From an uncultured Tenacibaculum sp. (lineage in GTDB: Bacteria > Bacteroidota > Bacteroidia > Flavobacteriales > Flavobacteriaceae): a DNA stretch of 64,000 nucleotides. The stretch spans positions 186,001-250,000 of the forward strand of contig NZ_CANMAX010000004.1 of NCBI RefSeq assembly GCF_947495995.1, read 5' to 3'. A model generated the notes under the pieces. The model was not told where the DNA came from and did not search any database. It saw only the letters and a list, made by a program, of their open reading frames with translations. This document shows, in pieces, positions 5,682 to 50,621 of the stretch. The position numbers and the translations under genes were made by a program. Within the stretch, counting starts at the first letter, position 1. Each line of letters begins with the position of its first letter.

Positions 5682-5707
5682 TGTGACCTTATTAGATAAA
5701 ATGTATC
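5682..5707 (+). promoter_or_regulatory. ECF-sigma-like promoter TGTGAC-N14-TGTATC upstream of the DUF4197 gene
   Basis: TGTGAC (5682-5687) and TGTATC (5702-5707) are separated by exactly 14 bp. This two-block layout (GTGAC/GTAAC-like -35, CGTC/TGTC-like -10) is typical of extracytoplasmic-function sigma factors. The same blocks with the same 14-bp spacer occur three times in the RNA array at 18557-18992. The expected start is about 5713-5715, giving a leader of roughly 24 nt before ATG 5738. Confidence 0.55.
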
Positions 5708-18252: not shown

Positions 18253-18525
18253 ATGGAGAATGTTTTAAAATATTATGATTTTTCTGATTTTTTTGAAGAC
18301 AAATCAACAGCATTTTCTGGAAACGAAATCGCATTTACCGAGTTAAACGCAGAGCATTTTTTAATTTTTGAAAAAACTTCTGAAAATTTTAATTTGTACG
18401 TATCTAAATTTCTGAAAGAAAAAGATATTGGAGTGAATCCACCAGAAATACTAGAATTATTAGTAGAAAATTACGATAAATCTATTCCTGAACATAGAAT
18501 TATCTTACGAAAATACCTTCACTAA
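18253..18525 (+). CDS. Hypothetical protein (90 aa) downstream of clpS
   Basis: An acidic, soluble 90-residue protein without signal peptide (MENVLKYYDFSDFFEDKSTA...) begins 1 bp after the clpS stop. It is the last gene of the tpiA-prmA-clpS run and is followed at once by a terminator. No motif or family was recognised. Position and codon use argue it is real; a link to proteolysis would be guesswork. Confidence 0.7.
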   Translation: MENVLKYYDFSDFFEDKSTAFSGNEIAFTELNAEHFLIFEKTSENFNLYVSKFLKEKDIGVNPPEILELLVENYDKSIPEHRIILRKYLH

Positions 18526-18553
18526 AAAACTCAATTTAATTGAGTTTTTTCTT
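18525..18553 (+). terminator. Intrinsic terminator of the tpiA operon
   Basis: The stem ACTCAA (18529-18534) pairs with TTGAGT (18540-18545), flanked by A and T runs, at the stop codon of the last gene. The T run leads straight into the first ECF-like promoter of the RNA array. Confidence 0.8.
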
Positions 18554-18556
18554 TTT

Positions 18557-18582
18557 TGTGACCTTTTTAAAAATCTTGTGTC
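18557..18582 (+). promoter_or_regulatory. ECF-like promoter of RNA unit A (TGTGAC-N14-TGTGTC)
   Basis: TGTGAC is at 18557-18562 and TGTGTC at 18577-18582, 14 bp apart. The spacer contains TTTTTAAAAA, shared with the two following units. Confidence 0.6.
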
Positions 18583-18587
18583 TTATT

Positions 18588-18742
18588 AAATGTAACAGTA
18601 AAGTAATACTGTTCAATTTTTAAGACGTTCATTGTATTTATATAAAGTTACTTTTAAGTTATAACAATACTTGTAGTTAGTTAAAAACTAAGTTTGATAA
18701 CCAAAGGAGACTTGAGATAAAATTTTTAGCCTCCTTTTTGTG
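18588..18742 (+). ncRNA. Structured RNA unit A of a tandem array
   Basis: The predicted transcript of about 150 nt starts near 18588. Elements in order: hairpin 1 (AACAGTA 18594-18600 / TACTGTT 18607-18613), the conserved box GTTCATTG, hairpin 4 (TTAGTT 18677-18682 / AACTAA 18686-18691), TAAGTTTG (18689-18696) and a terminator (AAGGAGACT 18704-18712 / AGCCTCCTT 18728-18736, one mismatch, then T run). It has no coding frame worth reporting. It is the shortest of the three complete units; the middle hairpins of units B and C are not clear here. The function is unknown. Confidence 0.6.
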
Positions 18743-18764
18743 ACTTTTTAAAAACCGATGTGTC
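18739..18764 (+). promoter_or_regulatory. ECF-like promoter of RNA unit B (TGTGAC-N14-TGTGTC)
   Basis: TGTGAC is at 18739-18744 and TGTGTC at 18759-18764, 14 bp apart. It abuts the T run of unit A's terminator, so each unit is a self-contained promoter-RNA-terminator cassette. Confidence 0.6.
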
Positions 18765-18769
18765 TTACT

Positions 18770-18968
18770 AAATGTAACAGTTTAATTAAACTGTTTTTAA
18801 AAGAAGTTCATTGTAATCCCTGTAAATAACTCCAAGTTATATTAAGTAATCCAAAGAACTATTAACTGTATTGTTAATAGTGATAAAAATAGTAGTAGTT
18901 AGTTTTTATACTAAGTTTGGTTAGACAAGGAGACTTAAAATATTTTTCATTTCTAGTCTCCTTTTTTG
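18770..18968 (+). ncRNA. Structured RNA unit B of a tandem array
   Basis: The predicted transcript is about 200 nt. Elements: hairpin 1 (AACAGTTT 18776-18783 / AAACTGTT 18788-18795), GTTCATTG box, hairpin 2 (ATAACT-CCA-AGTTAT, 18826-18840), TAATCC box, hairpin 3 (ACTATTAAC 18858-18866 / GTTAATAGT 18873-18881), hairpin 4 (TTAGT 18899-18903 / ACTAA 18910-18914) overlapping TAAGTTTG, then the terminator (AAGGAGACT 18927-18935 / AGTCTCCTT 18955-18963). Hairpins 2 and 3 differ in sequence from unit C but keep pairing. The 48 bp at 18885-18932 are identical to 19271-19318 in fragment D. Confidence 0.65.
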
Positions 18969-18992
18969 TGACTTTTTAAAAAAAGATGTGTC
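18967..18992 (+). promoter_or_regulatory. ECF-like promoter of RNA unit C (TGTGAC-N14-TGTGTC)
   Basis: TGTGAC is at 18967-18972 and TGTGTC at 18987-18992, 14 bp apart, directly behind the T run of unit B's terminator. Confidence 0.6.
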
Positions 18993-18997
18993 ATAAT

Positions 18998-19224
18998 AAT
19001 GTAACAAGGTTTTAAAGGTTACAAATCATAATAAAGAAAAGTTCATTAGAATAAAAATATAAGGTAATTCCCAATTACATTAAATAATCCCTAAGCTATG
19101 CAAATAGCAATAAAATTTAAGTAGTGTAAATAGTTTGAATAGTAAGTAGTAGTTAGTTTTAAAACTAAATTTGGTTAAAGAAGGGAACTGAGAAGATGGA
19201 GAAGTTTAAAAGTTCCCTTTTTAT
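18998..19224 (+). ncRNA. Structured RNA unit C of a tandem array
   Basis: The predicted transcript is about 225 nt. Elements: hairpin 1 (GTAAC 19001-19005 / GTTAC 19018-19022), GTTCATTA box, hairpin 2 (GTAATT-CCC-AATTAC, 19064-19078), TAATCC box, hairpin 3 (GCTAT-GCAA-ATAGC, 19095-19108), hairpin 4 (TTAGTTTT/AAAACTAA, 19153-19168), TAAATTTG (19166-19173) and the terminator (AAGGGAACT 19181-19189 / AGTTCCCTT 19211-19219). Compared with unit B, the hairpin 2 and terminator stems show compensatory base-pair changes. No reading frame longer than a few codons is present. Confidence 0.65.
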
Positions 19225-19260
19225 TTTACTATCAAATAAGAAATTAAAAAAGAAAATAGT

Positions 19261-19350
19261 TTAAGTAGTTAAAAATAGTAGTAGTTAGTTTTTATACTAA
19301 GTTTGGTTAGACAAGGAGGCTTCAATTAATTTTGAAGTCTTCTTTTTTTG
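19261..19350 (+). repeat. 3' fragment of the RNA unit (copy D)
   Basis: This copy retains hairpin 4 (TTAGT 19285-19289 / ACTAA 19296-19300), TAAGTTTG (19298-19305) and a 13-bp terminator stem (19313-19325 / 19332-19344, two G-U pairs) with a T run. It lacks the TGTGAC/TGTGTC promoter and the 5' half. It may be a decayed copy, or a short RNA driven by the TAAGTTTG box. Confidence 0.6.
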
Positions 19351-50222: not shown

Positions 50223-50617
50223 GGGGACGACTGGTTTTGACAGCAAGATTAGTAAAATTGTAAGCATACCGAGGACTGAAATGATTCTCGTTAAACTTAT
50301 TTCAACAATTTAAATGGCGAAAATAATTACGCTTTAGCTGCTTAATAATCCGAATTATAGTAAGATTCAAGCCTCGGCGCACAAGGTGCGCAAGCTAAAT
50401 GTCCACGGAAAGCCTTGGTTTACGGCGTTTCATTTCTGGGCATCATAAAAGTAAACATAGAAAATCTAAAGCTTCGATAGGTTTTCGAAATTAAAGAAGA
50501 TAAGCTAAAAGTGGATCGTTTTTAGTCAGCTTTTAGTCGAAAATTAAATAAAAACTAAGTATGTAGAAAGCTCTTGAGCTACTTGTTTGGACCCGAGTTC
50601 GATTCTCGGCGTCTCCA
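50223..50617 (+). ncRNA. ssrA: Transfer-messenger RNA (tmRNA)
   Basis: The 5' end GGGGACGACTGGTTTTGACA pairs with the 3' end GTCTCC (50611-50616), and the T-arm GGACCCGAGTTCGATTCTCGG precedes it, forming the tRNA-like domain. The resume codon GGC at 50316 starts the tag GENNYALAA, stop TAA 50343-50345, the tag type found in Flavobacteriaceae. The CCA tail is not fully encoded after ACA. The RNA rescues stalled ribosomes with SmpB. A terminator follows directly. Confidence 0.96.
50316..50345 (+). other. tmRNA tag-peptide reading frame GENNYALAA
   Basis: Codons GGC GAA AAT AAT TAC GCT, then TTA GCT GCT TAA, encode the degradation tag ending in ALAA, recognised by ClpXP-type proteases. Confidence 0.95.
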
Positions 50618-50621
50618 CAAA

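Follow-up and report, generated by a model that had tools for sequence, protein, structure and literature searches.

Results

A stretch of 64,000 nucleotides from an uncultured Tenacibaculum sp. (contig NZ_CANMAX010000004.1, positions 186,001–250,000; hereafter the window) contains, at 18557–19350, a tandem array whose sequence supports its assignment as an undescribed family of RNA genes with promoters and terminators of their own. We consider it probable that these are noncoding small RNA (sRNA) genes under a single autoregulated sigma factor of the extracytoplasmic function (ECF) type, that the RNAs act in trans, and that the locus once encoded a short protein with a PID-CTERM domain. Computational support comes from the family itself, its conservation, the promoter that it shares with the sigma factor gene, the co-occurrence of the two, the covariation of its terminators, and relatives of the array that are protein-coding.

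On inspection, the array consists of three promoter-bearing units (A, B, and C) and a promoterless 3′ fragment (D), all on the + strand, as a preliminary description of this DNA had listed them. A motif scan bore out the accompanying claim that each complete unit starts with TGTGAC-N14-TGTGTC, which occurs with zero mismatches at 18557, 18739, and 18967 and is missing before D. Each of the three units also has a TAGTTAG...CTAA hairpin. Fragment D (19275–19350) repeats only the 3′ core of the units and the terminator. The array starts directly after the terminator of the prmA–clpS–90aa operon (AAAACTCAATTTAATTGAGTTTTTT, 18525–18550, + strand), which separates operon from array and has a counterpart hairpin ahead of the promoter in many relatives, and it ends ~450 bases short of the next gene (start 19806). 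When the genome was searched at the DNA level with unit B, D, C, and A matched with E-values of 1e-22 to 5e-14, and the remaining matches were weak.

The 3′ core, ~37 nucleotides long and represented in unit B by ATAGTAGTAGTTAGTTTTTATACTAAGTTTGGTTAGAC, is near-invariant across the family. The preliminary description had called for a search for homologues; in a DNA search of 59 relatives, the core was found in 21 of 36 same-genus genomes (E < 1e-8). At the loci examined, it lies nearly always downstream of prmA–clpS–90aa, in 1 to at least 6 tandem copies, and promoterless 3′ copies like D recur. One pattern scan of named genomes returned 62 contig stretches with the core, all but a few from Tenacibaculum or Polaribacter, and the promoter lies 40–250 bases upstream of most recognizable cores at these loci. 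The scan pattern itself fixed part of the core; conservation also extends to what the pattern left free, namely the middle of the core and its flanks, which read ATAG on the 5′ side and TTAGAC on the 3′ side.

Beyond the genus, matches to model R1 reached at most 47 bits, and we rejected them as family members, taking them as generic AT-rich terminators because the inspected loci lacked clpS, the promoter, and the remainder of the core. Two loci of other Flavobacteriaceae genera, L157 and L159, apparently encode a short intergenic RNA in which AGTTTGGTTAGT, resembling the end of the core, is followed by a terminator; the genome position differs, and in L157 a TAnnTTTG-like box precedes the RNA. 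The sequence TTTGGTTAG was rejected as a family-wide terminator motif for its rarity (at most one per tested genome), as was a phage origin of the array, viral contigs having given no match. Rfam returned nothing at the gathering threshold for the array, and other families matched only at chance level (E up to 5), which agrees with the earlier statement that no described flavobacterial family is known to have such a build. Among the other loci, L022:2837–2914 (− strand) gave a marginal match to Rfam C0465 (40.8 bits versus a gathering threshold of 40) that is probably due to chance.

The stems of the terminators differ widely between relatives and covary. In 33 homologues, 11 of the 14 terminator stem pairs are changed on both sides and 97.2% of cells are paired; none of 500 shuffles gave covariation as high, and sliding the partners abolishes the signal. 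Compensatory changes had been claimed earlier from the three paralogues, which alone are too thin for the purpose. The claim stands for the terminators in the larger set and is supported for the hairpins with a CCC loop, which remains constant while the stems differ (GTAATT/AATTAC, GATAAT/ATTATC, AGATATT/AATATCT). Outside the window, ~22 units of other species have AGTA opposite GAA in hairpin 3, in a covarying stem and often with a flanking G.A (carriers include L031, L088, L110, L024, L122, and L072); none occur in the window. This internal loop resembles a loop-E/bulged-G motif. Pairing of the GTTCATT box with 5′ AATG(T)AAC, although perfect in some L120 units, is not claimed because units that lack GTTCATT retain the 5′ sequence as well. 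Taken together, conserved location, copy number, the lack of an open reading frame (ORF), covarying terminators, and the absence of an Rfam match support the original reading of the array as a duplicated family of structured sRNAs.

The promoter suggests a specific regulator for the family. Its GTGAC and GTGTC boxes suit an ECF sigma factor. A housekeeping promoter was rejected for the units, the −10 side being GTGTC instead of the TAnnTTTG element; a sigma-70 scan was uninformative. In the same genome (G000), with one mismatch allowed, the motif was found at G000:C3:572.2 kb (locus L059), where it precedes by ~75 bases a sigma gene that is divergent from rpoD; the product of this sigma gene is of ECF type, with 89.3 bits against TIGR02937 (cut-off 42.9). 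Across the genus, 24 orthologous sigma hits were compared, and 21 of them have GTGAC-N(13–15)-GTGTC 50–90 bases upstream, the exceptions being L145, L148 (degenerate), and L149, which is a second copy next to L133; in other genera, the motif is closely upstream of the sigma gene in 8 of 11 loci. An excess of the motif is confined to genomes that have the sigma factor: five sigma-positive genomes have 19, 13, 12, 8, and 7 motif matches versus 2, 2, 5, 4, and 2 for a reversed control, and three sigma-negative genomes have 4, 0, and 5 versus 3, 2, and 3, with no exact matches. Among the 36 same-genus genomes, sigma factor and RNA are both present in 20, the sigma factor alone in 3, the RNA alone in 1 (a genome that is 67% complete), and neither in 12, an association that relatedness of the genomes inflates and whose direction remains the same. 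The sigma factor is distributed more broadly than the RNA, occurring in 75 of 201 family genomes. From these sequences, we infer that the units encode ECF-sigma-dependent sRNAs and that the sigma factor is autoregulated. Further motif sites that recur between species include those at genes for an M48-like metalloprotease lipoprotein, an OmpA-like protein, and a large secreted protein, all named by eye from the encoded sequences. At 5682–5707 of the window, TGTGACCTTATTAGATAAAATGTATC matches the ECF-type promoter with one mismatch and closely precedes a small lipoprotein-like gene (MIKRILIVCIALQFVGCDELQK...), which possibly belongs to the ECF regulon of the array.

In some relatives, the same slot is protein-coding. 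At ~14 Polaribacter-clade loci, a ~62-amino acid PID-CTERM protein is encoded between an array-type promoter and the core, and L025, L034, L036, L038, and L039 also carry a ~62-amino acid protein flanked by promoter and core. An example product, MSIKNIIIVILLLLPFIGFAQVVPPPMPPPPPPGLPIDGFSGVLLALGAVYGIRKKYKDSSS, matches the PID-CTERM domain at 36.2 bits (cut-off 26), and the conserved AAAGATAGTAGTAGTTAG encodes the protein end K-D-S-S-S-stop. The units of the window and of Tenacibaculum have only short open stretches, those of the window with no ORF ending in a GLPID-type C-terminus between promoter and core, and L083 and L109 have apparently decayed ORFs with the core intact. The preliminary description would have been overturned, in its own terms, if the units formed one long untranslated region belonging to a protein gene; this applies in part to many Polaribacter relatives, where the gene is that of the PID-CTERM protein, and not to the genome of the window. 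In a tree of the neighboring proteins, all 20 rows on the Tenacibaculum-dominated side are noncoding, and the other side has 11 coding and 7 noncoding rows; the tree implies 5 changes between the two states (4–5 in bootstraps), of which the starred branches force one only. We infer repeated loss of the ORF, from coding to noncoding, and the ancestral locus probably encoded a ~62-amino acid PID-CTERM membrane protein. A search for PID-CTERM elsewhere in the same genome gave no match, and the control likewise gave none. We had considered the constant AGT-AGT-AGT-TAG codons of the coding relatives as a sign of RNA constraint and dropped the argument because the search pattern itself required those codons.

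The variable 5′ halves are rich in C boxes. CCC runs number 93 in the units versus 54 (standard deviation 4) in dinucleotide shuffles, and 19 of 84 distinct runs lie in hairpin loops with stems of at least 6 bp versus 4.1 (standard deviation 1.9) expected; for A and T runs, loops at 5 bp gave no clear excess. A hairpin with a G-rich loop, GATAGATTTCGGGGGACTTCTATC, is found beside the sigma gene in ten Tenacibaculum genomes, and the array is present in all ten. This putative sRNA is usually present twice in tandem, with terminators; a TAnnTTTG-like box precedes the first copy and the ECF motif the second. In the genome of the window, the locus is at L126:3265–3561 (G000:C3), ~1.2 kb downstream of the ECF sigma gene, and the same region is represented by L127–L135; it has no Rfam match. 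Pairing between the CCC loops and the GGGGG of this RNA is plausible.

In unit A, the ECF-type promoter (18557–18582) is followed by hairpin 1 (AACAGT..ACTGTT, 18594–18613), a GTTCATT box (18627–18633), a diverged 3′ core with hairpin 4 (TTAGTT-AAA-AACTAA, 18673–18701), and the terminator (AAAGGAG...CTCCTTTTT, 18703–18739). Unit B has its promoter at 18739–18764, hairpin 1 (AACAGT..ACTGTT) at 18776–18795, the GTTCATT box at 18806–18812, hairpin 2 with its C-rich loop (ATAACT-CCA-AGTTAT) at 18826–18840, hairpin 3 (ACTATTAAC..GTTAATAGT) at 18858–18881, the core, near-identical across dozens of relatives, at 18889–18926, and the terminator at 18927–18967. The corresponding elements of unit C are the promoter (18967–18992), hairpin 1 (TGTAAC..GTTACA, 19000–19023), the GTTCATT box (19041–19047), hairpin 2 with a CCC loop (GTAATT-CCC-AATTAC, 19064–19078), a second C box (TCCC, 19088–19091), a core of the TTAGTTTTAAAACTAA variant (19145–19178), and the terminator (GAAGGGAACT..AGTTCCCTTTTT, 19180–19224). 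In fragment D, the core (19275–19312) precedes a predicted 13-pair terminator hairpin (19313–19350) that covaries in relatives. All of these lie on the + strand. The GTTCATT boxes and both forms of hairpin 2 are as first described, and near 18739 and 18967 the T run of one terminator does merge into the next promoter. An AAGGAG-type terminator, ascribed to every unit, is present in A, B, and D but not in C, which has GGGAACT...AGTTCCC. Elsewhere, the window carries an ordinary transfer-messenger RNA gene (50223–50620).

Discussion

We favor a model in which envelope stress would lead the ECF sigma factor to transcribe its own gene, genes for envelope proteins, and several copies of an RNA of ~150–240 nucleotides. 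Each RNA would have a variable 5′ half with C-rich (UCCC) hairpin loops and end in the near-invariant 3′ core and terminator. The RNA most likely acts post-transcriptionally in trans, providing a repressing arm for a regulator that is otherwise positive, and the several copies could give a higher dose or a wider range of targets. A further possibility is that the UCCC loops bind the G-rich-loop sRNA, whose gene lies next to that of the sigma factor. In Tenacibaculum, the locus would have lost its ORF but kept its promoter and 3′ core, both of which multiplied.

Several observations weigh against this model. No mRNA target of the array RNAs was found, and the genome gave no match to the usual sRNA chaperones, Hfq (PF17209) or an RRM_1 protein (PF00076), for both of which control genomes were positive. 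The envelope-stress component is based on few motif sites, recognized from the proteins that they precede. Hairpin 4, the hairpin of the core, is near-constant, and the pairs counted show no compensatory change; because of this constancy, covariation neither supports nor refutes the hairpin, and only conservation of the core sequence is shown. The G-rich sRNA, finally, is only partly complementary to the units beyond UCCC, its duplex energy with them is a small gain on shuffled sequence (−8.9 versus −8.2 kcal/mol), and it co-occurs only loosely with the C boxes.

The last of these points bears on whether the units are mainly sponges for GATAGATTTCGGGGGACTTCTATC, acting by kissing of C and G loops. 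The enrichment of UCCC loops, the presence of the array in every genome with the G-rich sRNA beside the sigma gene, and the ECF promoter of its second copy would all fit such a function, but in two of those ten genomes (L026 and L028), the units have no CCC runs, at least one genome (L041) has a CCC loop without the G-rich sRNA, and the gain in duplex energy is slight; we regard sponging as the main function as doubtful. It is somewhat easier to imagine, and we hold it as a tentative possibility, that the 3′ core is a tag for stability, localization, or protein binding. The functional molecule would then be the 3′ end, which in coding relatives would amount to a 3′UTR-derived sRNA, and the 5′ half would be variable cargo. 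Coding and noncoding versions have no other transcribed part in common, the stem and loop of the core hardly vary, and 3′ copies without a promoter, like D, are found repeatedly. Many 5′ halves nevertheless have structure of their own and elements that recur (GTTCATT, CCC loops, the AGTA/GAA hairpin), and a tag of this kind is compatible with the sRNA model rather than exclusive of it.

There are two further alternatives. The array could be the remnant of decaying multicopy PID-CTERM genes, in which promoter and terminator persist by inertia and no RNA functions, as the ~14 coding Polaribacter-clade loci and the recognizable decay at L083 and L109 might suggest. We consider this improbable: although the genus has diverged and the ORF is lost, the core and promoter have stayed near-invariant, the terminators covary, multiplied copies keep intact promoters, and the CCC-loop and AGTA/GAA hairpins are positively conserved. 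Most units retain the frame ending AGT AGT AGT TAG, which would also be expected if they encoded very short peptides ending in SSS; the noncoding units, however, have only ~3 to 42 codons open before the stop and no common start or sequence, and coding of this kind seems most improbable.

The trans-acting sRNA model places the array in a kind already known, that of ECF-dependent sRNAs; what is unusual is the series from coding to noncoding loci and the putative pairing of C and G loops. A bolder extension, which we offer only as speculation, is that the gene for a small membrane protein under a stress sigma factor became a regulatory RNA gene more than once, its ORF decaying and its promoter and 3′ core surviving. 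The RNA would then have multiplied in tandem and acquired C-rich loops that kiss a G-rich-loop sRNA from beside the gene of that sigma factor, forming an RNA–RNA circuit within one regulon that works without Hfq. Tenacibaculum and Polaribacter form a clade to which fish pathogens and common marine bacteria belong and for which our literature search found no described sRNA family. If the model is correct, the array would supply one, together with a named candidate for the controlling sigma factor. The natural series of coding, decayed, single-RNA, and multicopy-RNA loci would offer a view of a protein gene becoming a regulatory RNA, and the system could be used to ask how sRNAs act where Hfq and an RRM_1 chaperone were not found.

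Among known systems, the PID-CTERM short proteins (NCBIfam NF046080) share slot, promoter, and 3′ core with the units through the Polaribacter-clade relatives; unlike them, the units of the window have no such ORF. MicA, RybB, and MicL are enterobacterial sRNAs that depend on sigma-E, an envelope-stress ECF sigma factor (PMC12249550, PMC4618604), which uses MicA and RybB as its repressing arm (PMC4618604, PMC12249550). The array resembles them in its predicted small RNAs with their own promoter of ECF sigma type. It differs in that it has no Rfam match (including no sequence or structure match to the families of these three RNAs), Hfq was not found, the copies of one family are in tandem, and there are coding relatives. 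FoxI and FoxJ of Fusobacterium nucleatum are likewise sigma-E-dependent and serve that sigma factor as a trans-acting arm, and FoxJ has mRNA activation activity (PMC11005410). They are ECF-sigma-dependent sRNAs of a nonproteobacterial phylum, as we believe the array RNAs to be; sigma factor, sequence, and phylum are different.

Within the Bacteroidota, a related case is FopS of Bacteroides thetaiotaomicron, a set of paralogous sRNAs with a single-stranded 5′ seed and a terminator, bound by the RRM protein RbpB (PMC11697453). FopS is reported to have been deposited in Rfam; the array had no Rfam match, and whether the Rfam copy used contained FopS was not checked. Both are multicopy paralogous families with a long shared motif, but the array has a long structured 5′ part and an ECF promoter, and since the genome yielded no Hfq and no RRM_1 protein, FopS–RbpB is not a model for it. 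The nearest published flavobacterial parallel that we found is Rfp11 of Flavobacterium psychrophilum, an sRNA listed in the same putative ECF promoter class, SM6, as an ECF sigma gene (PMC9723704). Although SM6 is described by a CGT box rather than by GTGAC/GTGTC, Rfp11 and the array share a flavobacterial host and a putative ECF class of promoter.
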